Of a stretch of 64,000 bases of DNA, positions 4,751 through 27,251 are shown in pieces. How positions within the stretch are numbered: the stretch's first letter is position 1; each line of letters opens with the position of its first letter. Origin of the DNA: Selenomonadaceae bacterium (lineage in GTDB: Bacteria; Bacillota; Negativicutes; Selenomonadales; Selenomonadaceae); the NCBI GenBank assembly GCA_017476005.1, contig JAFVEM010000035.1:1-64000 (forward strand), given 5' to 3'. The translations under genes and the position numbers were made by a program. The notes beneath the pieces were generated by a model that had not been told where the DNA came from, did not search any database, and saw only the letters and a program-made list of their open reading frames with translations.

Positions 4751-5561
4751 AACCGAGGTATGGGCGCATCGAGGCGCGTCGGGCTGGGACAAGCAGTACG
4801 CCGCCGAGAACACCATGCCGGCCTTTCGGAAAGCGGTAGAAATGGGAGCCGACGGCATCGAATTGGATGTCCAACTCACGAAAGACGGCGAAGTGGTCAT
4901 CTGCCACGACGAGCGTATAGACCGCACCGCTAGGGGACGAGGCTGGCTCAAAGACTTCACCCTAAAGGAACTGAAGCAAATAGACTTCGGCAAACCCCAT
5001 GCAGAACAAGGCTTTGCGGCCATTCCCACCCTACGCGAGTTTTTGGAATTTGCCAGACCTTTGGACATTAAGGTTGATATCGAACTGAAAACCGGCTTTC
5101 TTTATTATGACAGACTGGAGGAAAAGACGGCGCGATTGGTGCAGGAATTTGGCATGGGGGAGAGAGCGATTTATTCCTCTTTCAACCATTACAGCTTGCA
5201 AAAACTAAAGTGTGAGTTTAACAACGCTCAAATTGGCCTTCTTATAGGGCAGAACACCCTGCATATCCCGGAAGATGTTGCAGTGTTGAAAGCAAATGCT
5301 GTTCATCCGCCGGAATCCATGGTGACAAGAGAGTATATCGAAAACTGTCATGCTAATGGTATTAAGGTACATACTTGGACGGTGGATAGTCCCGAGAGGA
5401 TGAGGGAGCTGGTGGATTTAGGCGTGGATGCTTTTATTACGGATTGCCCGGATAGTGGGAGGAAAGTGGTGGAGGAGGGGAAAAGGTGGATACGAACAAC
5501 TTACGAAGAAAATTGGCAAAGGATTCAGATGCGAAAATTGCAACATTCATCGAGGATATAA
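4743..5561 (+). CDS. Glycerophosphodiester phosphodiesterase (GDPD family)
   Basis: A TIM-barrel enzyme that hydrolyses glycerophosphodiesters to glycerol-3-phosphate plus an alcohol. Diagnostic motifs are HRGASG near residue 9, AENTMPAF, and GIELDVQLTKDGEVVICHD (metal-binding Glu/Asp and catalytic His). A KVDIELK strand follows, with VHTWTVD and DAFITDCPD near the C-terminus. It starts at GTG 4743 behind GGAGGCGAAGGA. There is no signal peptide, so it should be cytoplasmic and could supply glycerol-3-phosphate for the neighbouring cytidylyltransferase. The last ~25 residues lie in a 76-bp overlap with the next gene and look non-conserved. The original stop was probably lost at a recombination junction. 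Confidence 0.92.
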   Translation: MAKTEVWAHRGASGWDKQYAAENTMPAFRKAVEMGADGIELDVQLTKDGEVVICHDERIDRTARGRGWLKDFTLKELKQIDFGKPHAEQGFAAIPTLREFLEFARPLDIKVDIELKTGFLYYDRLEEKTARLVQEFGMGERAIYSSFNHYSLQKLKCEFNNAQIGLLIGQNTLHIPEDVAVLKANAVHPPESMVTREYIENCHANGIKVHTWTVDSPERMRELVDLGVDAFITDCPDSGRKVVEEGKRWIRTTYEENWQRIQMRKLQHSSRI

Positions 5562-6535
5562 AATCACAAAAAAGAGTGTTCCTGTATGGTGCCGGAATGG
5601 TAGCAGGAAAGCTAATCGAGTGTCTGCAATCTTATAAAATTGATAATGTTGAGGTCGTTATTGTTAGTGATGGTCATAAAAAGGAAACCTCTTTCATGGG
5701 GTTCCCGATCATGGAGTTATCCACGGTTAGATTTTTACCAGGAGATTGCATAGTACTTGCCGTAGTGGAATGGAAACAGGCGGATTTGCACGAGCAATTA
5801 TCATCGATAGAACTTCCAGAAAATGTTGTTATTTATGAACAGAAGGTAATTATATCTTTAAAAGATATGGAAGAATTCTATAATGGTGTTTGCATCGATG
5901 GCTATTTTTTTAGTGCATATTCGACTTTAAATGATTTAGGACATAGGTATGGAACCGATAAGGCGGAAGGAAAACATAATTATTTACATAAGTATGAATT
6001 CTTTTTGCGCCAGTTTCAATCGGAGCCTATGTTGTTGATTGAATTGGGTGTATTCGATGGCAGTAGTATAAGGATGTGGGCGGAATATTTTCACAATGGA
6101 CGTATTCTAGGGGTCGATATTGATGAAAGATGCCTAAAAATCAAGGGTAATAACTATGAATGTATGAGGCGCGATTTGTCTAAATCTGAAGTTTTGGAAG
6201 AGATAGGTCATTATTCGCCAGCAATTATTATAGATGATGCATCTCATATGTGGAGTCACCAAATTATGGCATTGTCTATTTTATTTTCTAAATTAAAATC
6301 GGGAGGCATATACATCGTAGAAGATATAGGAACAAGTTTTGGGAAATTTCGAGATATGTATTTTAATGATGCCACAATTAGTGCCTATGAGTTTTTGTCC
6401 ATAATTTGCGAATTGGTGACAGGTAAGGAATTGAGGGACACGAATAATTTGTTTATAAATGAGGCTCGAGAGATAGCCGAGCAAGTTGATATGATAACGT
6501 TTATCTATGGAAGTTGCATTATAGTAAAAAGGTAG
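5486..6535 (+). CDS. Rossmann 'GxG' module plus class I SAM methyltransferase (CmcI-like)
   Basis: 349 residues. Residues ~28-125 form the shared module: RVFLYGAGMVAGKL, a V-V-I-V-S-D-G strand, then a C-I-V-L-A-V strand. Residues ~150-349 are a class I methyltransferase of the cephalosporin-hydroxylase-like sort: LLIELGVFDGSS as the SAM-binding motif, then ILGVDIDERC, AIIIDDASH and GGIYIVEDIG. The likely substrate is a sugar or sugar-phosphate of the glycan. It starts at GTG 5486 just after a strong GGAGGAGGGG, and that start lies inside the previous gene. The 76-bp overlap is unusual. The DNA becomes clearly AT-rich from here on. It has the same two-part plan as the protein at 26241. Confidence 0.8.
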   Translation: MDTNNLRRKLAKDSDAKIATFIEDIKSQKRVFLYGAGMVAGKLIECLQSYKIDNVEVVIVSDGHKKETSFMGFPIMELSTVRFLPGDCIVLAVVEWKQADLHEQLSSIELPENVVIYEQKVIISLKDMEEFYNGVCIDGYFFSAYSTLNDLGHRYGTDKAEGKHNYLHKYEFFLRQFQSEPMLLIELGVFDGSSIRMWAEYFHNGRILGVDIDERCLKIKGNNYECMRRDLSKSEVLEEIGHYSPAIIIDDASHMWSHQIMALSILFSKLKSGGIYIVEDIGTSFGKFRDMYFNDATISAYEFLSIICELVTGKELRDTNNLFINEAREIAEQVDMITFIYGSCIIVKR

Positions 6536-6553
6536 TTAGCATGAAGCCAAATT

Positions 6554-8343: not shown

Positions 8344-8368
8344 CAGGAATGGACATTAGGGAGAAACT

Positions 8369-10287: not shown

Positions 10288-11439
10288 ATGTTGACCGATA
10301 GCGAAAAGACTAGCAGAGTGGCCATTTTTTCAGTGTATGACAAAGATGGAGTTTGGGGAGAATATCGTTCATATTTGGTGACGGAACTAAAGAAGGTATC
10401 ACAACGGTTGTTTATTGTTGTCAATGGAACTCTGCATGATGAAATACCTCAATCAATCAGCGATTCCACTACCCAAATTTTCTTTAGAGAAAATTTGGGA
10501 TTTGATGCTGGGGCATATAAAGAGATTTTGGTAAATCATATAGGTTTAAATGATTTACGAATTTACCAAGAATTAATACTTTGTAATGATACGTTCTTTG
10601 GCCCATTCACTTCTTTTGTGGATATTTTTGAGGATATGAAAAAAAACGATGCTGATTACTGGGGATTATTTCGCATAGAAGAGCGCATTCTAGAGGTTAT
10701 ATGCTCATGTTTCTATGTATTTAGATTAAAAACAAATTTAATAGCTGATTTATATAGTTATTTTAAACGATCAATAAATGCTAATACAACCAATATTTAT
10801 GATACATATAATGAATATGAAATCGGGCTTTATTCGTGGCTGAGGTTCAAGAATTATAAAAGTGATACTTACATAAAACACAATCCATATAATGTAAATG
10901 TAAACGGTGACATGGCTTTATTAGATGTGAAGTTACCTATAATAAAGAAAAAATTTTTTTCGTCGTGTACCAATAAAGAGAATATTGTACACGCATTGCA
11001 ATTAATATATTATTCTAGTAGGTATAGTATAGATTACATTCTTAATTACACCGATTTATCAATATATGAAATCAACTGTATAGATGATGTTGTTAATTAT
11101 GAGTTGCAACAGAATAAATTGAATACCTCACGACAATACTTTTGTCAATTAACAAAAGTATTTCTCCTATCGTATATAGATGAAGCAAGTGACATATATA
11201 TATATGGCAATGGTATTTGGGCCGATTTTATTTATGGAATTTATTTCAAGAACACAAATAAGCTCAATGGCTTTATTATCAGCAAGGAAAAGTGTAAACA
11301 TAATATGTATGATTTGCCGATCTATTCATATGACAAATATTTTGACGAAAAAAATGTAATTGTAGCAATGTCTGCAAGTAATACTAGAGATTTAATTTTG
11401 CATATAGGAAAAAAAGTTAAATGGCTATATCTGTGGTAA
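10288..11439 (+). CDS. RgpF-like (rhamnan synthesis F) protein with C-terminal Rossmann module
   Basis: 383 residues. The N-terminal ~230 resemble the rhamnan synthesis protein F family of glycosyltransferases: VAIFSVYDKDG, RENLGFDAGAYKE, LILCNDTFFGP and NDADYWGL are characteristic. Residues ~300-383 carry the shared module with a Gly-Asn-Gly variant (IYIYGNGIWADF) and a V-I-V-A-M-S-A strand. It should transfer a deoxyhexose-like sugar, as its relatives act in rhamnose-rich streptococcal polysaccharides. It is very AT-rich. GGAG lies 12 nt before the ATG, slightly distant. Confidence 0.8.
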   Translation: MLTDSEKTSRVAIFSVYDKDGVWGEYRSYLVTELKKVSQRLFIVVNGTLHDEIPQSISDSTTQIFFRENLGFDAGAYKEILVNHIGLNDLRIYQELILCNDTFFGPFTSFVDIFEDMKKNDADYWGLFRIEERILEVICSCFYVFRLKTNLIADLYSYFKRSINANTTNIYDTYNEYEIGLYSWLRFKNYKSDTYIKHNPYNVNVNGDMALLDVKLPIIKKKFFSSCTNKENIVHALQLIYYSSRYSIDYILNYTDLSIYEINCIDDVVNYELQQNKLNTSRQYFCQLTKVFLLSYIDEASDIYIYGNGIWADFIYGIYFKNTNKLNGFIISKEKCKHNMYDLPIYSYDKYFDEKNVIVAMSASNTRDLILHIGKKVKWLYLW

Positions 11440-11518
11440 TCTATGAAGTGAAACTGACGTTTTACAATCACCTCAAATTTTAAAAATTCGATGGATCGTG
11501 TGTTGCGTGAGGATTGTT

Positions 11519-13543
11519 ATGCAAAATAAGAGAAGCATATATCAAAATGTTTTTGGAGTATATAAGAATTACTCCATAATTATATATGGAACGGGGGTCA
11601 TCGCTTCAGATATCGTTGATGCGCTAAAGGATACATACGATTTATATGCAGTAATGGATCAAACAAGACGACATGGAGAATTCAATGGCATAAAAATTAT
11701 CGACTGGGATGATATGATAGAAGAAGGATATGTGTTGATCGTGGCTGCCGCAAGTCACCACTACCTTAGTATATATCAGAGAATTAAGTACGAATGTGAG
11801 AAAAGAAGGATTTTAATAATTGGCGCGTATGGGGAGATTATCTCAACTAAGGCATGGGCGCAGTTTGATATGACGCCATTTCATGATTATTTGAAATTAA
11901 ATATTAATGATGCAAAGCTAGCGATATCAGAACATGACTATATTAGCTTTGATGTCTTTGACACTTTACTCGTACGGCAGGTTTATGAGCCTGCAGATGT
12001 ATTTTCTATTATCGAGGATGAAATTATCAAAGAGAGACTCGAGATAGCTGATTTTGCATTTTTAAGAGGCAAGATAGGGCTAAAGAAAAATAACATTTAC
12101 GAAACATATGAACAATTACAAAAAGAAACGGGTATAAGCGATACATTAAAGGAACACCTGTTATATTTGGAAATAGCTATAGAAAAAGAGGTTTTACTGG
12201 TCAGAGAGGATGTAAAAATTCTATTTAATTATGCCAAGTCCTTAGGGAAGGAAATAAGTATAATATCAGATATGTACTTACCAAAAGAACTTTTAGCAGA
12301 GATATTGTCCTTAAAGGGTATTAGCGGTTGGAATAATATATATGTTTCATGTGACTATCGATGCAATAAAGAAGACGGTTTATATCAGGTATATCTAGAG
12401 AGTATGAACGAAAGTGATACATCTCTTTTTCTGCATTTTGGAGATAATCCCCAAAACGATGATCGTGTTCCTCGAGATTTAGGGATGCATGTATTTCCCT
12501 TGAAAAGTCCGAAGGAGCTACTTAGCATTTCAACACTTAATAGTTTATTTGAATTGACTGGTAGCTATAGTGGACGTCTTCTTGTGGGGGCGGTTATTGC
12601 GAGGCTATTTAACAGCCCATTTTCGGTATCAGAACAAGGAGGCGTTCCCATTATAAGAAAATGGGAAACTGTAGGGGCGGCGTATTTTGCAATATTTGTT
12701 ATAATATACTACCAACAACTTTTTTCCTATCTAAAGACTCATCCTGTAAATGGAAAGATTTTGTTTACAGCGCGAGATGGCTATATATTTGAGAAAATAT
12801 ATAGCATCATTAGACAATGGCCAAAATATAAGTCGCTACCACTAGCGGTTTACTTGTTCATATCTCGCCGACTAGTGTTTGATTTATGCCGTAATGATAC
12901 AGATTTAATTGGATTTTTAGAGCATTATTACGTTTTGAACAATAGCGATATAAAAATCTGGATGCAAGAGCAATTGGCACCTGCACAGAATGTTATGGAG
13001 AGACGTATACAATATCGATCTTATCTACAACAAATTGGGTTGGAGACGGATCGAAATAATATTTTTTTTGAAGTATATTCTATGGGTACAGTTCAACATT
13101 TCTCAAGGAGTTACTTAGGAGATAATTTAACGGGACTGTATTTGATGCGTTACTATAAAGATATAAAATTTGACGATAAAATTGAGAGTGTTTATACTAT
13201 AGATGAAAATTTTCAAAAGGACTATCCTTTTATGCGAAATGTCCAGTTATTTGAGTGGTGTTTTTCCTCGCCACATCCCTCCATATATGCAATAGATGCA
13301 ATGGGTAAACCTTTGTATTATTCAGATTGGCGTTTACCAAAAGATATTATGGCTATGCTAGCTATGCAAAAAGGTGTTCACGATGTTACTATATATTTTT
13401 TTAAATATTGTCGTGATGATGATCAGTTAGATAAAGATATTGCTCCTAAGATTCATTCTCACCTATATGAGTCAGTGTTTGAATCAGAAACAAAAAGTAT
13501 ATTTGATAAAGAACGATTTTTTAAATTGCTTAAATTTAATTAA
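11519..13543 (+). CDS. Rossmann module plus HAD-like hydrolase and large C-terminal region
   Basis: 674 residues. I chose ATG 11519 because TGAGGA lies 5 nt upstream; the frame also opens at GTG 11498. Residues ~14-110 are the GxG module (SIIIYGTGVIASDI). A HAD domain follows with the nucleophile motif ISFDVFDTLLVR near residue 142, the Ser motif ISIISDMYLP, the Lys in C-N-K-E-D-G, and LHFGDNPQNDD as motif IV. The last ~300 residues include ILFTARDGYIFEKIY and a FFEVYSMGTVQHF segment. This matches a class of HAD proteins found in glycan clusters whose substrate is unknown. It could dephosphorylate a sugar-phosphate intermediate. Confidence 0.78.
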   Translation: MQNKRSIYQNVFGVYKNYSIIIYGTGVIASDIVDALKDTYDLYAVMDQTRRHGEFNGIKIIDWDDMIEEGYVLIVAAASHHYLSIYQRIKYECEKRRILIIGAYGEIISTKAWAQFDMTPFHDYLKLNINDAKLAISEHDYISFDVFDTLLVRQVYEPADVFSIIEDEIIKERLEIADFAFLRGKIGLKKNNIYETYEQLQKETGISDTLKEHLLYLEIAIEKEVLLVREDVKILFNYAKSLGKEISIISDMYLPKELLAEILSLKGISGWNNIYVSCDYRCNKEDGLYQVYLESMNESDTSLFLHFGDNPQNDDRVPRDLGMHVFPLKSPKELLSISTLNSLFELTGSYSGRLLVGAVIARLFNSPFSVSEQGGVPIIRKWETVGAAYFAIFVIIYYQQLFSYLKTHPVNGKILFTARDGYIFEKIYSIIRQWPKYKSLPLAVYLFISRRLVFDLCRNDTDLIGFLEHYYVLNNSDIKIWMQEQLAPAQNVMERRIQYRSYLQQIGLETDRNNIFFEVYSMGTVQHFSRSYLGDNLTGLYLMRYYKDIKFDDKIESVYTIDENFQKDYPFMRNVQLFEWCFSSPHPSIYAIDAMGKPLYYSDWRLPKDIMAMLAMQKGVHDVTIYFFKYCRDDDQLDKDIAPKIHSHLYESVFESETKSIFDKERFFKLLKFN

Positions 13544-13620: not shown

Positions 13621-14724
13621 ATGGGTATTAAGGTTTCGATTGTGACGGTATGTCTTAATAGTAAAAATTGCCTCGAACAAGCTATGAGGAGTGTTTTTTA
13701 TCAAAACTATGATAACATAGAGTATATAGTCATTGATGGAGGCTCTACAGATGGCACTTTGGATATAATAAAAAAGTATGAAAGAAATATTACATATTGG
13801 GTAAGCGAACGAGACAAGGGAATATATGATGCGATGAACAAAGGGGTTGCTAAGGCCACGGGCGATATTATTGGCTTTATGAATAGTGATGACTGGTATG
13901 AGACAGATTCGATATCTACCATTGTCGCTACTTTTTCTGCCTCCGATGCAGATATTGTTTATGGAGATGCAATAAGAATAAATGGTAATGCTTTTCAAAA
14001 ACAACAAACTCTAAGATTAAAAGATTTGATATTTGGTATGAATATCTGCCATCAAGCTAGTTTTACTAGAAGTAAATTATTAAGGGAAAATCCATTTGAT
14101 ACATCATACAAAATTTCTGCCGACTATAATTTTTTTTTAAAAATGTACTTTCAAGGAAAAAAATTTCGACGAGTCGATGCAGTGATCGCCTTTTATCGGT
14201 TGGGGGGCATCTCATCAAATCCATGGAAAAATTATATAGAAACTAGGAATGTGTCATTAAAACTATCTAAGGAAAACGTATCTGCCGAATTTTACCAGAC
14301 AATACGGAGGTATTTTAAAGATTACAGATTCCATCCACTGCTCTTTTTTCTTATGGCAAGATGTCAGACGAAGCAAGTCCACAGTATAAAATTGCTCTTG
14401 GAAAAGTATGATTTTATATTGTTCGGTGCTGGAAAAATGGGGCATAAATTACTCGTTGTAATGAGACACATAGGACTCAATGTCATTGCATTTTGGGATA
14501 GCAATAAATCGTTGTATGACGTTATGCTAGGAGGTATGCCTGTACAAAGTCCACATCCAAAAGAGATATGGCCGAATAATACGATTATTTTAGTGGCTAG
14601 CAAGAAAGCAAATGAGTCTATTTCTGCTAGACTTTCGTCTTTGGGGTACATCAATGGACAAGATTTTTTCGATGTATGGGCATGGCTTGGTTGGGTTGCC
14701 AAGGTTTGGTTAGGTAGGATATAG
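13621..14724 (+). CDS. WcaA/WcaE-like GT2 glycosyltransferase with C-terminal Rossmann module
   Basis: 367 residues from ATG 13621, preceded by AAGGGG. An in-frame ATG at 13588 would add 11 residues without a ribosome site. The GT2 domain has IVTVCLNS, EYIVIDGGSTDGT, WVSERDKGIYDAMNKG and FMNSDDWYE, the pattern of colanic-acid-type GT2 enzymes. The shared module starts near residue 264 (FILFGAGKMGHKLL). The catalytic and Rossmann parts are separated by a short helical linker, the same arrangement as in the proteins at 17624, 19121 and 20418. Confidence 0.88.
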   Translation: MGIKVSIVTVCLNSKNCLEQAMRSVFYQNYDNIEYIVIDGGSTDGTLDIIKKYERNITYWVSERDKGIYDAMNKGVAKATGDIIGFMNSDDWYETDSISTIVATFSASDADIVYGDAIRINGNAFQKQQTLRLKDLIFGMNICHQASFTRSKLLRENPFDTSYKISADYNFFLKMYFQGKKFRRVDAVIAFYRLGGISSNPWKNYIETRNVSLKLSKENVSAEFYQTIRRYFKDYRFHPLLFFLMARCQTKQVHSIKLLLEKYDFILFGAGKMGHKLLVVMRHIGLNVIAFWDSNKSLYDVMLGGMPVQSPHPKEIWPNNTIILVASKKANESISARLSSLGYINGQDFFDVWAWLGWVAKVWLGRI

Positions 14725-14787: not shown

Positions 14788-16554
14788 ATGAAAGTTACCA
14801 TGGTATCCTCCAGTGATATTGGAGGCGCGGGATATGCAGCAGTGAGTTTGTTAGATGCATTGAATAAAAATGAGAACATTTCCTGTGATATGTTGGTACG
14901 GAATAAACATACCAATCATCTGAAAATTTATCCTGTCAAAGGTCGTCCACTTTTCTTAGATTACGTTCAGCAGGCTTATTTTCAGCAAAATATTAAACCG
15001 GGTCATACTTTACTTTCGCTTATGTATTCTGATATGGAGGAGGAATATCTGAAAATATGTTTAAACTATGATATTATTCATTTTCATTGGATCGCGAATT
15101 TTGTGTCTGTGGAATCAATATCCTACTTAGCGAGGCAAGGAAAAAAATTGATATGGACATTCCATGATTTGAATCCAATGACAGGAGGATGCCATTATTC
15201 CTATGGGTGTGAAAAATATATGGAATTCTGTAGTAATTGTTCGGAAATGGTCGATAATAAATATAATATCACGAAAGGTATGTTGTTACAAAAAAAGAGG
15301 TATCTTCCTAAGAATTTAGTGGTCGTTACTCCCAGTCAATGGCTAGCAAATTGTGCTAGAAAATCTGCTGTCTTTAAGAAACATAGGGTAGAAGTAATTC
15401 CTAATTCAGTGGCATTAGATATTTTTTCGTCTCATGATAGGTTATATGCTAGGGAATACTGGCATATTCCTCATAATGCTAAGGTTATTCTTTATTGTGC
15501 TGAATATCTCTTGCAAGTTCATAAGGGTTATAAATATTTTATAGAAACATTACGATGTGTGCGTAGCAATCCCGTATGGAAACAATGGGTACAGCAAGGT
15601 GTCATTCAACTTTTAATAGTAGGACATAGTGAAACGATAAAAAATGATATACAAGCATTAAGCGTTCCATGCATATTTACCGATTATCTGCAAAATAAAG
15701 AGATACTTGCTAAAGCCTATTCAGCAGCAGATGTTACCATATTACCATCCATTGAAGACAATTTTCCAAATGTAATGTTAGAATCATTATCATGCGGCAC
15801 ACCGGTGGTGGGATTTGCGACTGGCGGCATTCCTGAAGCCATTATCAATGGACAAACAGGATTTGTTGTTCCACAAAAGAATTGTAAAGCTCTTGGCGAT
15901 GCTATATTGCACATATTGCAAAAGGATAATATGAGAGAGGCGTGTAGAAAATTTGCAGAGAAATTTTTTAATGATAAGGTTCAAACTAGGAAGTATAAAA
16001 TTTTATATGATGATATTTTGTCCAGTCGTAGCAGTAGCACTAATTTTTACTATAATAAATTTCAGATGCCCACAGATGCTAAAAAGCTGTTAGCACCTTA
16101 TTTGTTTGATACTATTAAGTATTATTCTAGGTTATCTGTTAAACAACAGTTACTATTTATGAATAATATTAAAGAATTGGAAGACAAGGTATTGAATTAT
16201 ATGGAGAATAATTGGCAATTTATGGAGAAACTGCCTGATGAGTCTATTGCCATTTGGGGAGTAGGGAATTTTGCACAAAAATTGATGAGTTTTTTTAGTA
16301 AGATGAGGACTGATCTAAAAAACAAAATTAGGGGGTTCTTTGATAATCGTAATTATAGGAAAGTTGATTTCTTTTATGAATTACCGATATTAGATACGGA
16401 TCTTATCGCCACATACAATTTAAAAATGATTATTATAGCCTCTCTGAAATACGAGGATGATATATTTGACCAAATAAAAAAATTATCTTTATCAGATACA
16501 GAGATTATTCGACTGGGTAATATGTATATACAAAAAGTAATTTTCCCTGTTTAA
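14788..16554 (+). CDS. GT4 glycosyltransferase with C-terminal Rossmann module
   Basis: 588 residues from ATG 14788, behind AAGGGTGAT. The GT-B enzyme of family GT4 begins SSSDIGGAGYAAVSLL (glycine-rich acceptor loop) and continues through IIHFHWIANF and IWTFHDLNPMTGGCHY. The donor-site E-x7-E motif is in PSIEDNFPNVMLESLSCG, followed by GTPVVGFATGG. The N-H-W/F and Cys-rich GGCHY...C...C segment is typical of WcaC/WbaZ-like enzymes. The module near residue 486 has a Gly-Val-Gly variant (IAIWGVGNFAQKL). It should act on a nucleotide-sugar in the cytoplasm. Confidence 0.88.
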   Translation: MKVTMVSSSDIGGAGYAAVSLLDALNKNENISCDMLVRNKHTNHLKIYPVKGRPLFLDYVQQAYFQQNIKPGHTLLSLMYSDMEEEYLKICLNYDIIHFHWIANFVSVESISYLARQGKKLIWTFHDLNPMTGGCHYSYGCEKYMEFCSNCSEMVDNKYNITKGMLLQKKRYLPKNLVVVTPSQWLANCARKSAVFKKHRVEVIPNSVALDIFSSHDRLYAREYWHIPHNAKVILYCAEYLLQVHKGYKYFIETLRCVRSNPVWKQWVQQGVIQLLIVGHSETIKNDIQALSVPCIFTDYLQNKEILAKAYSAADVTILPSIEDNFPNVMLESLSCGTPVVGFATGGIPEAIINGQTGFVVPQKNCKALGDAILHILQKDNMREACRKFAEKFFNDKVQTRKYKILYDDILSSRSSSTNFYYNKFQMPTDAKKLLAPYLFDTIKYYSRLSVKQQLLFMNNIKELEDKVLNYMENNWQFMEKLPDESIAIWGVGNFAQKLMSFFSKMRTDLKNKIRGFFDNRNYRKVDFFYELPILDTDLIATYNLKMIIIASLKYEDDIFDQIKKLSLSDTEIIRLGNMYIQKVIFPV

Positions 16555-17623: not shown

Positions 17624-18988
17624 ATGCAAAAGCCTAAAATATCAGTGATAATCCCCGTGTTTAATGTCGAATGTTATTTAGCCCGTTGTTTGGATAGCAT
17701 TATCCAACAAACGCTTACCGATATTGAGCTTATCTGTATAGATGATGCTTCAACTGACAATTCTCATGCTTTGTTGCAAGAATATGTTGCTATAACGCCA
17801 TATATGAAAATTGTGCATAATCAACATAGCCAAGGTGCCGGCGAATGTCGTAATGTCGGGCTACGTTTGTCCAAAGGCAAATATGTGGTGTTTTTAGACA
17901 GTGATGATTGGTTCGATATACATTTACTAGAGATAGCCTATGATAAAGCGGAAATGTGTAACGCCGAGGTCATATTTTGGGATTACATAGTGTATGATGA
18001 AGGAAATGACAAAATAATAGAACCACCTCAATATCCACTAGATGTAATAATGCCTTTAAGTAAATGTACTGTCAACGGCGTTCCTTTAACGGCTATAAAT
18101 AGTATGGCTGTATCGCCTTGGGTAAAAATGTGCCGCAGAGATTTTATAGTGCAAAATGATCTACAATTTCAAAGTCTGTCCAATTCCAACGATGTTTACT
18201 TTGGCTATATGACTGTATTATTAGCCAAGAAAGTGGCTTATATAGATAAACCATTAGTATATCACAGAATAAACAGAAAAGGTCAAATTTCGGAAACAAG
18301 AGGTAAAGATCCATGGAGTTCCTATGCTGCACTATATAAAATAAGCAGTGCTTTGGCAAAAAGACAATTACCATTTTTTAATATATTTAGAGGAAGAATC
18401 TTTGGAATAATTCATTACGCATACGTTTCTAAGGGAAGTAGTTCGGAGGTCAGAACCAAATTCAGCAGATTTATGGCAGATCGAGGCTTAAAAAAATTAC
18501 ACATGAATAACGTCAATGCAAATGATTTTGAATTCCCCATAGATTATCTTATTTGGCGCGATGTAAATCCTTATATCGTAGATAACTCACAAAAAAACAT
18601 CATTTTACAAAATTATTTTCTTGAACTCCTTAAAGATAGCCACTTACAGATGTTAGCCCGGAAGGGTTGGCGTATTTGCTTATGGGGCTGTGGTGTACGG
18701 GGAAACCATGTATTGACAATGGCGGAGGAAAATAATCTCAATATCGTATGTATAATTGACAAAAATCCCTCAGTGGTAGGTATGCATCAATGTGGTTTGA
18801 TGGTAAGTAATAGTCTTGATAATTTATGCCATTTTGAGGCAGTTATATTCACTAACAGAGCCTATGGTCGCGCAATAATGAACGAACTCATTAATGTTGG
18901 TAAACATGGTGTATATCTAATCGACATGGATTTATTCGTCTGTTATGACCAGTCTTTGGAGAAATGTATTTATAAAGTTGATGGATAA
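17624..18988 (+). CDS. GT2 glycosyltransferase with C-terminal Rossmann module
   Basis: 454 residues, ATG 6 nt behind GGAGAGG. GT2 motifs: ISVIIPVFNVECYLARCL, LICIDDASTDNS, AGECRNVGL and FLDSDDWFD. The acceptor side has SNDVYFGYM and VYHRINR. The shared module begins near residue 350 with a Gly-Cys-Gly variant (RICLWGCGVRGNHVL), followed by a V-C-I-I-D-K-N-P strand and a VIFTNRAYG strand. Downstream, 18989-19120 holds no gene and only short T/A-rich sequence. Confidence 0.88.
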   Translation: MQKPKISVIIPVFNVECYLARCLDSIIQQTLTDIELICIDDASTDNSHALLQEYVAITPYMKIVHNQHSQGAGECRNVGLRLSKGKYVVFLDSDDWFDIHLLEIAYDKAEMCNAEVIFWDYIVYDEGNDKIIEPPQYPLDVIMPLSKCTVNGVPLTAINSMAVSPWVKMCRRDFIVQNDLQFQSLSNSNDVYFGYMTVLLAKKVAYIDKPLVYHRINRKGQISETRGKDPWSSYAALYKISSALAKRQLPFFNIFRGRIFGIIHYAYVSKGSSSEVRTKFSRFMADRGLKKLHMNNVNANDFEFPIDYLIWRDVNPYIVDNSQKNIILQNYFLELLKDSHLQMLARKGWRICLWGCGVRGNHVLTMAEENNLNIVCIIDKNPSVVGMHQCGLMVSNSLDNLCHFEAVIFTNRAYGRAIMNELINVGKHGVYLIDMDLFVCYDQSLEKCIYKVDG

Positions 18989-19120: not shown

Positions 19121-20389
19121 ATGCTAGACATAAGTGTTATCATACCTGTCTATAACAGCGAAAAATATTTAAATGATTGTCTCGACAGTATATTGTCACA
19201 AGACTTGTCAAATATCGAAGTGATATGCTGGGATGATGGTTCTACCGATAATTCCAGACAAATTTTAGTCGACTATGAAGCTAGAGATAGTCGCGTAGTG
19301 GTTCTGGGAGGTACAAATAACCTAGGTCAGGCCTATGCCAGAAACCAAGGTATTTCCGTAGCGAAGGGGAAATACATTTTCTTTGTTGATGCGGATGACA
19401 TGGTAAAACCAAACGCCCTACAAGAAATGAAAATCAACATGGATAATCACAATATAGATGGTTTGTTGTTTGATGCTGATGTCATATATGAATGTGATGA
19501 AATGAAAAATTATCTTATATCTAAGAAGCGAGAACACGAGTATAATGGCATATTTACTGGTTCTGTTTTGTTTGCGCGTCTGTTATCCTATCAGGAATAT
19601 GATATGGTAGTTTGGCGTCAATGCTGGAAAAGAGATTATCTGATTAAAAATAATATTTTCTTTCAAGATGAGACAGCCCCCCATGAAGATAACCTCTTTA
19701 CTTTTAAAGCAATTCTATGCGCTCCACGCATGAGTTTGATTCACAAATCACTGTATACACATCGTCGCAGAAAAGGGTCATCAACGGCAAGTAATATCAC
19801 TCCACAAAGATTTATAAGTCATTTTTTGGTGTACTGCGAAACGGTTAAGTTCATATACGAAAAATCACTTAATATTAACTCGGCATGTGGTGTTATGGAT
19901 GATATTTATAAATATATTCTTTCGCGCAAAAATTTAGTAAAAAAATATTTGGTTAATCTATTTCACCAAGGGGTATCAATACAAGAGATAGAGTTTAATA
20001 TTTTTGATAAGCTTACATTTTATATGTATTTTAATCAGGACTATAAATACATTGATGAATTTTTTGTTGTAGGGATTTTACATAAAATAAGAAACTATAA
20101 ACATATTATAGTATATGGTGCTGGCTATATAGGAAGAGACACTGTAGCTATGTTGATTGAATACGGATTTAATAATTTTTATGTATCGGTAACAGAGTTA
20201 CAAGGTAATAATCATTTAATAAATATGGAAATACATGAAATAAAATCATTGCAGCCTATCCAAAGAGATAGTTTTGTGTTAATAGCTGCGCAATATAAGC
20301 ACTACCCCATAATGAGACAAAATTTAATTACGTTAGGGTTTAAAAACTATTGCCATGTACTTTATCCAGGAGAACGCAAAATATGGTGA
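19121..20389 (+). CDS. GT2 glycosyltransferase with C-terminal Rossmann module
   Basis: 422 residues, ATG behind GAAAGGGTGTTGAT. GT2 motifs: ISVIIPVYNSEKYL, EVICWDDGSTDNS, AYARNQGI and FVDADDMVK. The acceptor side has PHEDNLFTFKA and a THRRRKGS motif. The shared module begins near residue 327 (HIIVYGAGYIGRDTV). Its second half is less conserved but keeps the V-L-I-A-A strand. This is the last clearly AT-rich gene. Its 3' end and the ATG at 20418 mark the right edge of the low-GC block. Confidence 0.87.
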   Translation: MLDISVIIPVYNSEKYLNDCLDSILSQDLSNIEVICWDDGSTDNSRQILVDYEARDSRVVVLGGTNNLGQAYARNQGISVAKGKYIFFVDADDMVKPNALQEMKINMDNHNIDGLLFDADVIYECDEMKNYLISKKREHEYNGIFTGSVLFARLLSYQEYDMVVWRQCWKRDYLIKNNIFFQDETAPHEDNLFTFKAILCAPRMSLIHKSLYTHRRRKGSSTASNITPQRFISHFLVYCETVKFIYEKSLNINSACGVMDDIYKYILSRKNLVKKYLVNLFHQGVSIQEIEFNIFDKLTFYMYFNQDYKYIDEFFVVGILHKIRNYKHIIVYGAGYIGRDTVAMLIEYGFNNFYVSVTELQGNNHLINMEIHEIKSLQPIQRDSFVLIAAQYKHYPIMRQNLITLGFKNYCHVLYPGERKIW

Positions 20390-20417: not shown

Positions 20418-21737
20418 ATGTGCAGTGTATCGGTTTTGGTACCAATTTACAATGTTGCACCATATCTGGCGCAGTGCCTATCAAGTCTAGCGGCGCAAAC
20501 CATGCAAGACATAGAGTTTATCTGCATTAACGACGGCTCCACGGATTCATCATCGGAGATTGTCCATGTGTTTGCCCAGCGTGATTTGCGCTTCCGTGTT
20601 ATCGACAAAGAAAACAGCGGCTACGGTAAATCTATGAATCTTGGCTTGCGCGAAGCGAAGGGCGAGTATATAGGTATTGTGGAAAGCGACGATTTTGTGG
20701 AGCCGGATATGTTTGCTACTCTTTATGAAACGGCTAAAGGCTATGATGCCGACATAGTTCGGTCAGACTACTGGTCATATTTTCATAGCACAAACCATTA
20801 TTTTAATACAATCGGTGTTTATTACTACAATAAAGTCATCTCCGCCGAGCAAGTTCCTTCAGTTTTTGAGGGAAATCCATCCATTTGGAGCAATTTATAT
20901 CGTCGTGATTTTTTGTACAAAAACGATATTTGGTTTACCGAATCGCCGGGGGCATCTTTTCAAGACATAGCCTTTCATTTAAAAAATTTTATGTGCGCAA
21001 AAAGATTGTTTTTCTTGCATCGAGCCTTTTACTACTATCGCTGTGATAACGTAAATGCATCGGTCAAATCAAAAGGTAAACTTTTTTGCGTCTGTGATGA
21101 GTATGACGAGGCGGAACGTTTTATGAATGAACGACCGGAACTTGTCAAGAGATATCAACTGTTAATACCCTTTCTTCGTTTTGGGCATTATCTGTGGAAT
21201 TGCCATGATCGCAATCTAAAAGGGGAGGATCGTTTAGCATTTCTTAATCGTGTATATGATGAATATCAGGTCATTAACCAAAAAGGTCTAGTCGTTGAGG
21301 GCTATTGGTCGACTTATCGGTGGCGGATGATACAATTACTGCTTACTAATAAAGAGCTGTTCTTTCAACAGTTGTTGGCCAAGGCGCAAAAAAATCAGTT
21401 GCGTCGTAGCTTGTTAAACAATCTGCGCAGTGCAAAGCATGAGTACAAATTAGCCATATACGGGGCAGGTAAAATCGGCAAGCAAGTACTCGACACTTTC
21501 CTCAGAAATTATGTCAAGGTCGATTGTTTCTTGGTGACGGGGAAGCCGGAGGTAGGTTGCTTGGCTGGAATACCGGTATATTCCGTGGATGATGTGACGG
21601 CGGATAAGGAGGACTATCAGGTATTGGTAGCGGTGTCTGCGAAAACTCAAGCGGTCATTTATGCAAGGCTGATGGAGTTACAATTTCCCAATGTCATTTT
21701 ATTAGATGACTTGTGGCAGAAAATTTTGTGGGGGTAA
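20418..21737 (+). CDS. GT2 glycosyltransferase with C-terminal Rossmann module
   Basis: 439 residues. I chose ATG 20418 (behind ACGAGGA) over the upstream in-frame ATG 20355, which lies inside the previous gene. GT2 motifs: VSVLVPIYNVAPYLAQCL, EFICINDGSTDSS, YGKSMNLGL and VESDDFVE. The GASFQDIAFHLKN acceptor segment and FYYYRCDN motif recall capsule GT2 enzymes that use a Gly-Tyr-Gly-x-Ser-x-N loop. The shared module starts near residue 344 (KLAIYGAGKIGKQVL). GC content rises within this gene, so it may be a recombination boundary. Confidence 0.88.
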   Translation: MCSVSVLVPIYNVAPYLAQCLSSLAAQTMQDIEFICINDGSTDSSSEIVHVFAQRDLRFRVIDKENSGYGKSMNLGLREAKGEYIGIVESDDFVEPDMFATLYETAKGYDADIVRSDYWSYFHSTNHYFNTIGVYYYNKVISAEQVPSVFEGNPSIWSNLYRRDFLYKNDIWFTESPGASFQDIAFHLKNFMCAKRLFFLHRAFYYYRCDNVNASVKSKGKLFCVCDEYDEAERFMNERPELVKRYQLLIPFLRFGHYLWNCHDRNLKGEDRLAFLNRVYDEYQVINQKGLVVEGYWSTYRWRMIQLLLTNKELFFQQLLAKAQKNQLRRSLLNNLRSAKHEYKLAIYGAGKIGKQVLDTFLRNYVKVDCFLVTGKPEVGCLAGIPVYSVDDVTADKEDYQVLVAVSAKTQAVIYARLMELQFPNVILLDDLWQKILWG

Positions 21738-21740: not shown

Positions 21741-23960
21741 ATGGAAGGTGACTTTGAGCTGGCACGGGAAATGCCTACGGGACTATTGCGTTGGTACCCC
21801 TTGCATCGGGGAGAAAATGTTTTGTATATCGGCGATGAATATGATGCCATGGCGAATATGTTACGCGACGTTAAAGGGCTTAACGTCACGGTGATGCAAT
21901 TAGCCGATTTAGCGGATGTTAAGGGAAAATTCGCCTATATTGTTTGCGTAACTAAGTTGGAGCAAGTCGCCTCCCCCATTGAGTCGCTGCAACTGTTAAA
22001 GGGTTTACTGGCAACCGATGGTATTTTGTTCTTGGGCATGAATAATCGATTAGGGATGCGCTATTTTTGCGGCGATCGTGATCCCTATACCCTGCAAAGT
22101 TTTGATAGCATTGAAAATTATCGTCTCGCCAAGTCCCAGAATTTGCCGGGAAGAATGTACAGCCAAGCAGAAATTCGTCGCCTGCTGAAAGAGGCTGGGC
22201 TGAAAGGAAGGTTTTATGCGGTACTCTCTGACCTGCGTGATCCCAATTTTCTTTTTGCCGAAGGCTATACGCCCAATGAGGATTTAATCAATCGCATTTT
22301 GCCCTCCTACGTTTATCCAGAGGCTGTTTTTTTACAGGAGGAATACCTGTGCCAAGATTTGCTGGACAATGGTTTGTTTTATCCCTTAGCCAATGCTTAT
22401 TTGGTGGAATGTGTGTCGGCAGATAGTGCCGCGCATAATTTAGCCAACGTTGACTTTGTCACCTTGACATTGGCTCGCGGCAAGGAGAATGCCTTGATGA
22501 CCGCCGTTCGTGCTGATAGTGTGACTAAAGAAGCCGTGTGGCCTGAGGGACATTCTCGGCTCGCGCGTTTACAGTACAATACCGCGCTACTCAAGTCGAG
22601 GGGTATTCCCGTTGTTGAAGGAAATCTACAGGATAATATTTACACGATGCCTCGTATAGAGGCCGTAACGGGGCAGGTGCATCTGCAAAACTTGCTAAAA
22701 CACGATGTAAAAGAGTTTTTGGCGGCCATGGACAGATTTCGGGAATTGATTTTCCGTTCCTCCGAAGTTTATCTCGGTACTTACAATATGGGAGGACGCG
22801 AGGTATCTACCTTACTTCTGCGTGAGGCGTTCATTGACATGGTTCCCCTTAATTCTTTTTTTATAGACGGGGATTTCGTATTTTATGATCAAGAGTTTCT
22901 CATTAAGGATTATCCCTTTGAGGCATTGGTCTTTCGTATGGTGTCAACCTTTTACGCTTACCATGATGAATTGGAAAGATTACTTCCCTCGGTTGAGGTG
23001 TATGCACGATATGGCCTCCTAGAGAAACGCCGGATTTTGTATAATATGGAAAACGCCTTCCTACAAGATTTGCGAGAGCGAGATTTTTACCGACCGATGC
23101 GACGGAATCTGCCTCAAGTACATGCCAACCGCGAACGCATAAACTGGACGGATGCGGATTACCAACGTCATTTTGTGCAAGTCTTTGACAAACTGGACAC
23201 CCGGAAAGTTATTTTGTTTGGCGCCGGGAATTTTGCCCGGAGATTTATGGAAAGCTATGGCAATCGCTATCCGGTGTACGCTGTGCTGGACAATCAGGCG
23301 CAAAAGATGGGGCAGGAATGGTGCGGCCTAGAGATTCAGTCCCCGGAGTTTTTGTTGACTTTGTCGCCGGGGGAGTACAAAGTCCTTATTTGCATAAAAA
23401 ATTATATGCCCATAACTAAGCAGCTAGAAAACATGGGTATTACGGAATACGCTGTCTTTGATCCGCGTAAAAAGTATGAACTACCCAAGCATTGGAGTCC
23501 GCGGCACCTTGAGGGAAAATCTGCCAAGCTGAAAAAATTTCATCTTGGCTATGTAGCCGGGGTCTTTGACTTGTTTCATATCGGCCATCTCAATATTCTT
23601 CGTCGCGCCAAGGAAGAGTGCGATTATCTCATTGTGGGGGTAGTATCCGATAAGCAGGTACGCGAAGGGAAAAAGGTGGAGCCTTTTGTGCCTTTTGCGG
23701 AGCGTTTGGCCATGGTTAAGGCTTGTCGCTATGTGGATGAGGCTCACGAAATTCCCTTTGAGCATCCCGACACGGATTTTGCTTGGGAAAAATATCATTT
23801 TGACGCGCAGTTCTCCGGCAGCGACTATGAACATGACCCGGTGTGGCTCAAGAAGAAAAAATTTTTGGAAGAGCGTGGGGCGACCATGGTGTTTTTCCCT
23901 TACACCGAATCTACATCTTCCACCAAGCTGAAGCAGCTTATTGATAAAGGTTTGCTCTGA
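21741..23960 (+). CDS. Tri-partite protein: methyltransferase-like, Rossmann module, cytidylyltransferase
   Basis: 739 residues. The N-terminal ~170 look like a degenerate SAM-methyltransferase fold (ENVLYIGDEYDAMA as motif I, then GILFLGMNNRLGMRYFCG). Residues ~170-480 are an unassigned region with FIDMVPLNSFFIDGDFVFYDQE. The shared module begins near 489 (KVILFGAGNFARRF). Residues ~598-739 are a TagD/ECT-like cytidylyltransferase: YVAGVFDLFHIGHLNILRRA contains HxGH, and the domain ends S-T-S-S-T-K-L. The last domain should make a second CDP-linked donor besides that from 3416. Spacing to the previous gene is 3 bp, indicating coupling. The combination is unusual. The cytidylyltransferase part is secure, the first part less so. 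Confidence 0.82.
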   Translation: MEGDFELAREMPTGLLRWYPLHRGENVLYIGDEYDAMANMLRDVKGLNVTVMQLADLADVKGKFAYIVCVTKLEQVASPIESLQLLKGLLATDGILFLGMNNRLGMRYFCGDRDPYTLQSFDSIENYRLAKSQNLPGRMYSQAEIRRLLKEAGLKGRFYAVLSDLRDPNFLFAEGYTPNEDLINRILPSYVYPEAVFLQEEYLCQDLLDNGLFYPLANAYLVECVSADSAAHNLANVDFVTLTLARGKENALMTAVRADSVTKEAVWPEGHSRLARLQYNTALLKSRGIPVVEGNLQDNIYTMPRIEAVTGQVHLQNLLKHDVKEFLAAMDRFRELIFRSSEVYLGTYNMGGREVSTLLLREAFIDMVPLNSFFIDGDFVFYDQEFLIKDYPFEALVFRMVSTFYAYHDELERLLPSVEVYARYGLLEKRRILYNMENAFLQDLRERDFYRPMRRNLPQVHANRERINWTDADYQRHFVQVFDKLDTRKVILFGAGNFARRFMESYGNRYPVYAVLDNQAQKMGQEWCGLEIQSPEFLLTLSPGEYKVLICIKNYMPITKQLENMGITEYAVFDPRKKYELPKHWSPRHLEGKSAKLKKFHLGYVAGVFDLFHIGHLNILRRAKEECDYLIVGVVSDKQVREGKKVEPFVPFAERLAMVKACRYVDEAHEIPFEHPDTDFAWEKYHFDAQFSGSDYEHDPVWLKKKKFLEERGATMVFFPYTESTSSTKLKQLIDKGLL

Positions 23961-23980
23961 AATTTTTTTCGGAGGTTTAT

Positions 23981-25279
23981 ATGGAAATTGTTTGTTTTGC
24001 GAGTGGGGTGAACGGCCTTCATCCTCGTCAGGGGTTGCAAGATTTGAAGCAAGCCGGTTTTGATAAACTGGTGCTTGATTTTGGTTGGCTGAGTAACGTT
24101 CACGAATCCACCCTCACCATAGGACGAATTGCCAAAAAACCGCCGCGCTCTTGGCTCTCTCTGCACCCGGAGGCAGTGGCGAAGGTGACGGCGCCTTATG
24201 TGGAAAAATTCGTCGCCGCCGGCTTTTCCCTGCCGCTGGCGTGGGCGCCTTATATCGGTTGGCTGAAAGATGAGGTCGAGGCCAAAGTCGATCTTACGGA
24301 CATATTGACCGATTTTGTGACGGCTTGTTTGCCCGTGGCCGGGAAGGCCGGCTGTCGCTATATGGCGGTAAGTCCCTTAGCGCCGGAACTTATCGGCAGT
24401 CGCGAACTGTGGGAGGCCAATCGCGCCTATTATCTGCGTTTGGGGGCTGCAGCTCGTCCTTACGGGGTACAACTTTTGCTCAAAGGCAGGTGTCGCAACC
24501 AAAACGGGCGAGCGGTACGGGGTGTCGGCACCGATGAGAATATGACGGCGCAGTGGATTGACGCGCTGAACAAGGAAGTCGGGGCGGAGGTTTTTGGCTA
24601 TTGTTTGGATGTTGGCATTGCCAGCGTCTGCGGTCAGAATATGTATGACCTTGCTGTTACCATGGGGCATCGCCTCAAGGCCGTTATTCTTAGGGAGGCC
24701 AGCAATGTCTGGGGCGGATCCCTGCTGCCCTTTTCCTTGGCCAGAGGAGGCGAATCCCAGACTGATTGGCTGAATTTAATCAGGGGACTTCGTCGGATTG
24801 ATTTTGACGGGCAACTTATTATGAATTGTGGGGACACCTTGGCCGCGTTTTCACCCCTGCTACGCCCCGATGTCCTGTGCCTAGCCAAAAAGACGGCTGA
24901 TTATATCGCTTGGCAAGTAAAGATGGAGCAACTTTTGGCCAAGTATGATACGCGCGTACTGTTCGGCGCCGGCAATATGTGTCGCAATTACCTGAAGTGT
25001 TACGGCGAGCAGTATCCACCGCTGTTTACCTGCGACAATGACCCGGCCAAATGGGGGACAAAATTTTGCGGCCTGGAGGTGCGCGCGCCGGAATGTCTGC
25101 TGGATTTGCCGGAGGATTGCGCCGTCTTTATCTGCAACACCTATTATCGAGATATTGAGGAACAACTACGCGAAATGGGGCTAAAAAATCCCGTGGAGTT
25201 TTTCAACGATGAATTTATGCCCAGCTTTTACTTTGAACGCTTAGAAGAATTGGCGGAAGGTGGCGCAGAGACATGTTGA
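23981..25279 (+). CDS. Xylose-isomerase-like TIM-barrel protein with C-terminal Rossmann module
   Basis: 432 residues behind CGGAGG. Residues 1-~310 follow the AP-endonuclease-2/xylose-isomerase-like barrel: VLDFGWLSN, YMAVSPLAPELIG, FGYCLDVGIAS, VILREASN and IMNCGDT. The usual metal-binding Glu/Asp/His residues are partly altered compared with its neighbour at 25273, so it may be a non-catalytic or altered partner. The shared module starts near residue 323 (RVLFGAGNMCRNYL). The C-terminus overlaps the next gene by 7 bp. Confidence 0.75.
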   Translation: MEIVCFASGVNGLHPRQGLQDLKQAGFDKLVLDFGWLSNVHESTLTIGRIAKKPPRSWLSLHPEAVAKVTAPYVEKFVAAGFSLPLAWAPYIGWLKDEVEAKVDLTDILTDFVTACLPVAGKAGCRYMAVSPLAPELIGSRELWEANRAYYLRLGAAARPYGVQLLLKGRCRNQNGRAVRGVGTDENMTAQWIDALNKEVGAEVFGYCLDVGIASVCGQNMYDLAVTMGHRLKAVILREASNVWGGSLLPFSLARGGESQTDWLNLIRGLRRIDFDGQLIMNCGDTLAAFSPLLRPDVLCLAKKTADYIAWQVKMEQLLAKYDTRVLFGAGNMCRNYLKCYGEQYPPLFTCDNDPAKWGTKFCGLEVRAPECLLDLPEDCAVFICNTYYRDIEEQLREMGLKNPVEFFNDEFMPSFYFERLEELAEGGAETC

Positions 25280-26232
25280 AATTGGGGGTGCAGACCCAAG
25301 GGGTTATTGACGACGAAAACCCTTTAGAAGGTTTCGCTATGATTAGTCGCGCCGGCTTTTCCTGCGTGGATTTCAGTTTGCATGGTTATCTCAAAAACAC
25401 CGACATTTACGAGTCAAGACTCAATAATTTTTTTGACGCGCCCCTAGCTGAACTTAAAGAATTTTTTACTCCACATAAAGAAGCGGCGAAGGCCTATGGT
25501 ATTGCCATTCATCAAATGCACATGCCCTATCCGATTTATCAACCCAAGGGCAAACGTGAGGTCAATGAATATCTATGGCAACAGGTGGCGCCGAAGAGCA
25601 TGGAACTCTGCGCTTTTTTGGAGTGTCGGTACATTGTGGTGCATGGGTTTAAGCTACAGAAATATCTGGGTTCGGAGGAAGCGGAATGGCGTGAAACTGA
25701 ACGGTTTTTAGATTCTATATTACCGTTGGCCAAGGAGCATGGTATCGTCGTTTGCCTAGAAAATCTTTATGACGAGGTGGCCGGGCATATAGTGGAAGGG
25801 TCTTGCGCTAAGGCGGAGAGAGTTGCGGAACGCATTGACCGCATCAATGAGAAATACCAGACGGAGGTGCTGGGATTTTGCTTTGACATGGGACACGCCA
25901 ACTTGTTAGGGCTGGACGCGGAAAGTTTTTTGGTGACATTAGGCCGGCGGCTCAAAGTCCTGCATTTACACGATAATGACGGTCTGTGTGATCTCCATCA
26001 AATTCCCTTTACCTTCACCCGTGACAGAACGAATAAAGCCTCTACCGATTGGGAGGGATTAGTGCGCGGCCTCAGCAAAATCCAATTCGACGGTGTTTTA
26101 AATTTTGAAACCGCCCCGGCTTTGACGCCCTTTCCTGTTTGCATGAAAGCGGATGTGTTGCGGTTTATAGGTTGTATCGGTGAGTATTTGGCAGGGGAGA
26201 TTAGACGGATAGGATTGACGAAAGAGGAGTAG
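25273..26232 (+). CDS. Sugar-phosphate isomerase/epimerase (TIM barrel)
   Basis: 319 residues of the xylose-isomerase-like barrel family. The metal and catalytic positions expected for the family are visible: H-Q-M-H-M-P, Y-I-V-V-H-G-F, V-V-C-L-E-N-L, GFCFDMGHANL, VLHLHDNDG with LHQIPF, and a C-terminal N-F-E-T strand. The protein should isomerise or epimerise a sugar or polyol phosphate that becomes a donor. It lacks the Rossmann module found in the paralogue immediately upstream, so the two may work as a pair. Confidence 0.85.
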   Translation: MLKLGVQTQGVIDDENPLEGFAMISRAGFSCVDFSLHGYLKNTDIYESRLNNFFDAPLAELKEFFTPHKEAAKAYGIAIHQMHMPYPIYQPKGKREVNEYLWQQVAPKSMELCAFLECRYIVVHGFKLQKYLGSEEAEWRETERFLDSILPLAKEHGIVVCLENLYDEVAGHIVEGSCAKAERVAERIDRINEKYQTEVLGFCFDMGHANLLGLDAESFLVTLGRRLKVLHLHDNDGLCDLHQIPFTFTRDRTNKASTDWEGLVRGLSKIQFDGVLNFETAPALTPFPVCMKADVLRFIGCIGEYLAGEIRRIGLTKEE

Positions 26233-26240
26233 GCGCAGAG

Positions 26241-27251
26241 ATGACCAGACAAAACATTTTGCTTTGGGGAATAGGGTCAAGTTTCGCTAATGATAAAGAT
26301 ATTTTTTTCAGCCAAGAATTTGCGAAGCAATACAACATCATGGCGTGTATAGCCGCTACCCCCCCCGATAAAGACAATTCTGTAATTTCAACTATTCCTG
26401 TGATCACCAAGCATGATATAATAAATTTTGCTTTTGATAAAATTGTGATCGCGGCCTTGCCACATAATTTGCCGTCCATAAGAGACGATGCCGCCAGCGT
26501 TGGCGTACCGCTGTCTAAAATAATAACCGCCGACGATTTACTAACCGCCGAAGGAGCTTTTCGGTCGGCAGAATACTCGTATTGCGAACGGGTACAACAG
26601 GAGGTTATAAGTAATATTTTGTCGGCCACGGAGGAGCAAATCCACGACTATGAATGGCTGTATAAGCAGATATGTCGCTACGGCATTTATTGTTTTAATC
26701 CCGACTGGCAGACGCTAGATGATTCTATCCGTTGGACAAGATACGGTATCATGCAAGTACCCGAAGAATTTGCCGCCTTTTGTATATTACTCGGCAAATT
26801 AAAAATTTCCACGGCCATAGAGATCGGTGTTTTTCGCGGTAAAAGCTCTTACTTTATGTGCGCTGTTTTGCAACGATTAAATCCTACTTTGACCTATAAA
26901 ATGGTAGATATAAGAGACAATTTGGAAAGCTACGCCACTTTTGCGAGATTATTGCCGTCGCTGGAAAAATGTATTCCGTCCACATCAAACGACTATATTG
27001 GGGAACAGTATGATTTTGTTTTTATTGACGCTGATCATTCCTATGATGCATCAATTAAAGATTATTATAATCTAGGGCAATATTCCAAGGTGATAACGGC
27101 TTTTCATGATATTTACGCTCACGAATATGATCACTTAAACGGTGGAACCGTGCGAATGTGGAACGAAGTCAGCAAAATGGAGACAAGAAGAGCGCATGGC
27201 GTTTTTGCCAAGTATCCTAATCAATGGATGGGGATTGGGTTTGTAATTTGA
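26241..27251 (+). CDS. N-terminal Rossmann module plus class I SAM methyltransferase
   Basis: 336 residues. Residues ~3-110 are a divergent form of the shared module (ILLWGIGSSFANDK; an I-V-I-A-A-L strand). Residues ~185-336 are a class I methyltransferase of the Methyltransf_24/CmcI kind: AIEIGVFRGKSSYF as the SAM motif, YKMVDIRD, DFVFIDADHSYD and KVITAFHDIY. It repeats the architecture of the protein at 5486, so the operon has a methyltransferase near each end of the variable block. It is the last gene before the operon terminator. Confidence 0.83.
   Translation: MTRQNILLWGIGSSFANDKDIFFSQEFAKQYNIMACIAATPPDKDNSVISTIPVITKHDIINFAFDKIVIAALPHNLPSIRDDAASVGVPLSKIITADDLLTAEGAFRSAEYSYCERVQQEVISNILSATEEQIHDYEWLYKQICRYGIYCFNPDWQTLDDSIRWTRYGIMQVPEEFAAFCILLGKLKISTAIEIGVFRGKSSYFMCAVLQRLNPTLTYKMVDIRDNLESYATFARLLPSLEKCIPSTSNDYIGEQYDFVFIDADHSYDASIKDYYNLGQYSKVITAFHDIYAHEYDHLNGGTVRMWNEVSKMETRRAHGVFAKYPNQWMGIGFVI

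Follow-up and report, generated by a model that had tools for sequence, protein, structure and literature searches.

Why should eleven enzymes of a single operon, drawn from unrelated families, carry the same small domain? The question is raised by a 64,000-nucleotide stretch of a Selenomonadaceae genome (assembly GCA_017476005.1, contig JAFVEM010000035.1, positions 1 to 64,000; here called the window), in which an original prediction, made from the letters alone, had picked out a recurring Rossmann-like module with a Gly-x-Gly (GxG) loop. By our own count the module is present in 11 of the 19 genes between 3416 and 27251. Our analysis shows that its copies are homologous and make up one family; the fold is predicted to be of Rossmann type, and the closest relatives are nucleotide-binding domains, those of Rex, PglD/VioB and WbaP. 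The module is fused at either end or between the domains of unrelated enzymes of surface-glycan type, and it is inherited with its partner.

One module on eleven enzymes

All eleven segments were located at the predicted open reading frames (ORFs), and each displays the order of elements first described: a strand ending in GxG, a helix, a second strand and a hydrophobic strand. The segment positions held, and three ORF starts were revised (11519 to 11498, 14788 to 14779 and 13621 to 13588); the 20418 ORF has an alternative start at 20355. Identity between pairs of segments is only 7-35%, so that a likeness judged by eye is insufficient and an independent homology test is needed. Forty regions were sampled, nearly all from related genomes, and a hidden Markov model (HMM) was trained solely on proteins from outside the window genome. 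In a search of the window together with contig C73 of the same assembly (119 ORFs in all), this non-window HMM recovered every segment but one, with E values from 7.4e-25 to 1.2e-5, and only three other ORFs, all on C73, fell below E 0.01. In the reversed-ORF control the best of 1106 reached E = 0.011. The HMM passed over the GFO/IDH/MocA Rossmann domain encoded at 3416 and is thus not a generic GxG detector.

The segment at 26241 was marginal in the same search (E = 0.014). Its AlphaFold model has the succession beta-alpha-beta-beta-alpha-beta-alpha-beta, with the elements ordered as in the other modules, and hhalign against the non-window profile gives a probability of 94%. A phmmer search with this N-terminus found five other ORFs (E 1e-5 to 0.009) that are module hosts by profile. 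The predicted fold, the profile-profile comparison and a protein of the same architecture that passes the PF22674 cut-off support the assignment of this segment as a divergent eleventh copy. The observation of one module on eleven operon enzymes is therefore confirmed: the independent profile unites ten of the segments in one homologous domain family, and fold and hhalign add the one at 26241.

Beyond the window, the assembly holds three further hosts, all on contig C73 (L069, G000:C73, 1006-4175). They are a short ORF, a radical-SAM-like protein and a DUF4422 protein, and are probably part of a second glycan locus.

Fold and relatives

Profiles and predicted structures place the module as a Rossmann domain of about 95 residues in the group of Rex, PglD_N, CoA_binding_3 (WbaP) and CAC2185. 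Its distinctive loop is [YFW]GxGxx[GA], and the residue before GxG is aromatic in 98% of modules (n=208). The model of the module at the end of the 23981 protein matches Rex (the top fold match, E=1.3e-4), VioB with thymidine diphosphate (TDP)-sugar, PerB, PglB and 3nkl, while the best fold match of the 26241 domain model is 2g6t, an uncharacterised Clostridium acetobutylicum protein that, judging by the names, would be the C2185 of Pfam's C2185-like_N. Among solved structures, profile matches were obtained for 3nkl (7e-10), Rex (7e-9), VioB (6.5e-6), 2g6t (1.6e-5) and WbaP (1.2e-4); SucD-type CoA_binding and two PglD sequences gave too few aligned columns in hhalign for placement. The resemblance to PglD N-terminal and CoA-binding Rossmann domains that had been noticed at the outset is thus borne out by hhalign, by fold matches and by profile matches to the PDB.

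Modules travel with their enzymes

Is the module special to this operon? It is not, for many such loci exist besides this operon. At E<=0.01 a module profile (A1) had matches in 45 of 61 family genomes, with up to 26 strongly clustered matches per genome, of which those near the limit may include other Rossmann proteins. At the level of the phylum, 164 of 398 genomes match at 1e-6, a figure that overstates true modules because many are single matches and several lie in frames of about 214 residues, probably Rex or NeuD; counts per genome at this level cover at most 12 scored candidates. Host ORFs number 206 in the 41 sampled loci of the same family and 71 in the 14 loci taken from other families, and as the regions were picked for module density, these counts describe such loci and not genomes at large. 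In the family loci the module is N-terminal in 96 cases, C-terminal in 88 and internal in 18, with nine in short ORFs. Among 103 redundancy-thinned hosts the partners were GT2 (17), FkbM (13), radical SAM (11), GT9 (6), Methyltransf_24 (5), RgpF (4), GT4 (4), WbsX (3), TylF (3), HAD (3) and others. The partners of the 71 hosts outside the family are of comparable variety, with Glyphos_transf and polysaccharide deacetylase among them. All the partners named in the original prediction (GT2, GT4, RgpF, HAD, methyltransferase, TIM-barrel and cytidylyltransferase domains) are found among the hosts. Relatives of the TIM-barrel protein with a module occur in Selenomonadaceae, in Lachnospiraceae and in one Desulfovibrio metagenome-assembled genome.

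For 92 of 211 modules the closest relative is attached to the same partner family, where 10.4 would be expected; for only 15 does it lie in the same locus (9.2 expected), and 11 of these have the partner in common as well. Modules that share a locus but not a partner are 20.6% identical, compared with 20.0% for unrelated pairs. These figures indicate that a module is passed on together with its enzyme and is not fitted to the other modules of its operon. An operon-wide docking tag, as put forward with the first observation, is accordingly not supported, since modules resemble those on the same partner elsewhere and not their operon neighbours; modules might still dock with their like if such pairing tolerated divergent sequences. 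Recent duplication within the operon is ruled out by the low identity of the segments and by nearest relatives that lie elsewhere.

Conservation of the putative pocket

About 95% of modules retain GxG, and 159 of 209 have an acidic residue following strand 2. In Rossmann folds that bind nicotinamide adenine dinucleotide (NAD), the acidic residue holds the adenine ribose. It is lost in 27 of 50 GT2 and RgpF copies versus 23 of 159 others (Fisher p=7e-8, only indicative since the sequences are related); in the window operon, it is present in six copies and absent from five. Its loss from about half of the GT2/RgpF copies and from five of eleven here argues against one common ligand. Of the earlier suggestion that all the enzymes respond to one nucleotide or cofactor, nucleotide sensing is compatible with all findings, whereas a single shared cofactor is weakened.

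Conservation is higher in the loops of the pocket side than in those of the opposite side in five orthologue families (permutation p 0.003-0.014), the sides being assigned by the order of elements and not by coordinates, and such conservation being partly expected from the fold. In the TIM-barrel family (80-member alignment), 53 of 94 module columns are at least 90% identical as against 58 of 300 barrel columns, and mean information is 3.51 for the module and 2.57 for the barrel. The order is the reverse in GT2 families, where the module varies more than the remainder of the protein.

The TIM-family module (24914-25249 and orthologues) also contains highly conserved cysteines in the motifs NMC, KCYG, TCDN and ICN. 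Cysteines conserved at 90% or more stand close to where strands 1, 2 and 4 end, and three of the cysteines are near the pocket ends of strands; the pattern suggests a possible metal or redox site.

What could the module do?

We favour, with a probability of roughly one half, an accessory role in which this Rossmann domain would bind a nucleotide, either free or as the moiety of an activated sugar, and so regulate or feed the fused enzyme; it may also pair subunits. The module's kinship with nucleotide-binding domains speaks for this reading, as do the retention of GxG and, in most copies, of the acidic residue, the conservation of the pocket-side loops, and a module better conserved than its barrel in the TIM family. 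The cytosolic PF13727 domain of WbaP is stabilised by uridine mono-, di- and triphosphate (UMP, UDP and UTP) and holds most of the dimer contacts, UMP inhibits the enzyme, and a 'one-size-fits-all' regulatory role has been proposed (PMC10942596). It is this precedent that makes us prefer binding of a nucleotide or nucleoside diphosphate (NDP)-sugar and regard docking as the main rival. We infer that the module binds a ligand at all, and that this is a (di)nucleotide or NDP-sugar. Subclasses would bind different ligands, and binding would tune the flux through the fused enzyme. The pattern in the operon would then arise from glycan enzymes repeatedly using one handy sensing domain, and not from an assembly-line tag. 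Several points weigh against this proposal. The conserved glycines are also required by the fold itself; about a quarter of modules, including the five in this operon, are without the acidic residue; the copy in the 10288 protein is without the last elements of the module; WbaP represents a neighbouring family, other than the module's own; and the partners use S-adenosylmethionine (SAM), iron-sulphur clusters or NDP-sugars, so that no single ligand is obvious.

Could the module instead hold the enzymes together? Copies might pair with each other or bind a common partner and thus gather the enzymes at the membrane, with ligand binding secondary or lost, an explanation that we would entertain only tentatively. 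One fold placed N-terminally, C-terminally or internally on many unrelated, co-encoded enzymes would suit it, as would the dimer contacts of WbaP and the degenerate pockets of some copies. For the related phosphoglycosyl transferase EpsZ, modelling has led to the proposal that a response regulator favours or stabilises a dimer with these domains in contact (PMC12802240). However, no sign of operon-specific matching is seen, same-locus modules being hardly more alike than random ones, the conserved loops are on the pocket side, and several enzymes of the operon, such as the GT2s at 9107 and 16581 and the Glyphos_transf at 6554, have no module.

A sensor of redox or energy state that binds NAD(H) in the manner of Rex and throttles glycan synthesis appears improbable to us. 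Rex gives the best fold match and is close in sequence too, and most copies keep the acidic residue; but the similarity to relatives that bind NDP-sugar and UMP is nearly equal, the residue is lost in about half of the GT2/RgpF copies, and no winged-helix match is present in the window hosts. Still less probable is a structural spacer, an old and transferable second half of proteins with neither specific ligand nor partner: the high divergence and the weaker conservation of the module in GT2 families would fit, whereas its conservation beyond that of the enzyme domain in the TIM family, the pocket-side conservation in five families and its presence on many enzyme classes speak against it. That the segments are chance look-alikes or belong to different Rossmann families, as their very low pairwise identity might suggest, can be given almost no weight, and is ruled out for ten of them by the independent profile, the reversed control and the unmatched GFO/IDH domain of the same operon.

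The hosts and their surroundings

The eleven copies are listed in Table 1. In the 21741-23960 protein the domain order is methyltransferase-like, kinase-like, module and cytidylyltransferase, and the module is conserved across a 61-member orthologue alignment.

Table 1. Module copies in the window, with their hosts and supporting matches (HMM, non-window profile; pLDDT, predicted local distance difference test)
Module	Position	Strand	Place and host	Evidence
1	5537..5872	+	N-terminal, methyltransferase-like protein 5486-6535	HMM E=5e-14; partner Methyltransf_24, weak
2	11155..11436	+	C-terminal, RgpF-like protein 10288-11439	HMM E=1.2e-5; RgpF E=4e-27
3	11537..11872	+	N-terminal, HAD-like protein 11498-13543	HMM E=3.9e-8; NCBIfam TIGR02252 9e-6, under its cut-off
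4	14374..14709	+	C-terminal, GT2 protein 13588-14724	HMM E=3.9e-14; GT2 E=1.5e-31
5	16207..16542	+	C-terminal, GT4 protein 14779-16554	HMM E=5.8e-10; Glycos_transf_1 E=3.7e-27
6	18635..18970	+	C-terminal, GT2 protein 17624-18988	HMM E=9.1e-11; GT2 E=4.4e-30; CoA_binding 9e-4, under cut-off
7	20066..20386	+	C-terminal, GT2 protein 19121-20389	HMM E=3.3e-7; GT2 E=6.6e-36
8	21411..21734	+	C-terminal, GT2 protein 20355/20418-21737	HMM E=7.9e-14; GT2 E=1.5e-32; PglD_N 0.012, under cut-off
9	23169..23504	+	Internal, protein 21741-23960	HMM E=1.8e-19; CTP_transf_like E=1.6e-18
10	24914..25249	+	C-terminal, TIM-barrel protein 23981-25279	HMM E=7.4e-25; AlphaFold pLDDT 89
11	26241..26552	+	N-terminal, divergent, methyltransferase 26241-27251 (C2185-like_N type)	PF22674 E=1.8e-4, under cut-off; hhalign 94%; model matches 2g6t

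The TIM-module gene has a conserved companion in the gene at 21741-23960, the two occurring together in 65 of 80 loci; the 21741 type lies upstream in 63, and in 26 of these the two are more than 400 bases apart. The proteins at 23981-25279 and 25273-26232 are neighbouring xylose-isomerase-like TIM barrels, of which only the first carries the module. This barrel is without the His residues conserved in its neighbour, and the Glu of 'LEN' is also replaced in the window copy, a sequence pattern suggesting that it may be non-catalytic or altered.

The start of the operon (3416-9094) is of cytidine diphosphate (CDP)/phosphate-type chemistry, with a cytidylyltransferase-GFO/IDH fusion, GDPD, Glyphos_transf, a MobA-like nucleoside triphosphate (NTP) transferase and a DUF2284 protein. 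An AAA-ATPase-like/PD-(D/E)XK protein (27424-29010) adjoins the operon directly downstream.

Implications

What would such a domain mean for glycan synthesis? The pattern is real, widespread and apparently undescribed in the literature that we searched, and is built from a known domain type; the open-access literature searched, on Rossmann tags spanning an operon and on CAC2185/2G6T, PF17836 and PF22674, yielded no description of such a tag. We speculate, while considering it rather unlikely, that the module is a general-purpose plug-in domain for nucleotide sensing and pairing, shared by the enzymes that build surface glycans in Selenomonadaceae, Lachnospiraceae and further bacteria of the phylum, which co-regulates or holds together the glycosyltransferases, methyltransferases and radical-SAM enzymes of one pathway. 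The module is mostly missed by Pfam and NCBIfam and recurs in glycan enzymes of a large group of gut and rumen bacteria. Knowledge of its ligand or partner would help the annotation of hundreds of enzymes and could reveal how an assembly line with changing enzymes balances its steps. Moreover, the module offers a test of whether the nucleotide-sensor idea advanced for WbaP extends to later pathway steps.

Comparison with known systems

The C-methyltransferase C-terminal domain PF08484 (D-mycarose 3-C-methyltransferase, 4rv9) is likewise a domain on a sugar methyltransferase, but its similarity to the module is weak and it is confined to one enzyme type. PF22674 (C2185-like_N) covers the divergent branch only, matching 6 of the 103 thinned family hosts: the N-terminus encoded at 26241 scores 22.2 bits against a cut-off of 27, whereas the protein L130:8219-9211, which has the same architecture, passes with 45.2 bits. 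The NADH-binding domain of Rex is of the same Rossmann type (hhalign 96.2%); however, the residue before GxG is aliphatic in 11 of 11 Rex sequences scored from the same bacteria, and Rex carries an N-terminal DNA-binding winged helix, while the window hosts are enzymes. With PF17836, the N-terminal domain of PglD, NeuD and VioB (TIGR03570), the module has fold and motif in common, and two window proteins give weak PglD_N matches. The relation proposed originally stands but membership does not, as the best window protein scores 16.6 bits, or 19.4 in the genome search, against a cut-off of 23.4; in addition, the left-handed beta-helix acyltransferase of PglD does not follow the module, and no hexapeptide acyltransferase match was found in the eleven hosts. 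The WbaP-type domain has in common with the module the Rossmann fold, the GxG loop, the acidic residue, a G-x-P-V-type strand next and a glycan enzyme as partner, with homology at profile level (hhalign 95.8%, E=7.8e-9 over 78 columns). It differs in that the window hosts are unmatched by PF13727 in a Pfam scan up to E=1 and in having an aromatic residue before GxG in only 1 of 14 sequences scored from the same bacteria, against 98% of modules. In 3nkl, named in the PDB as UDP-D-quinovosamine 4-dehydrogenase, a Tyr precedes GxG, as in the module.

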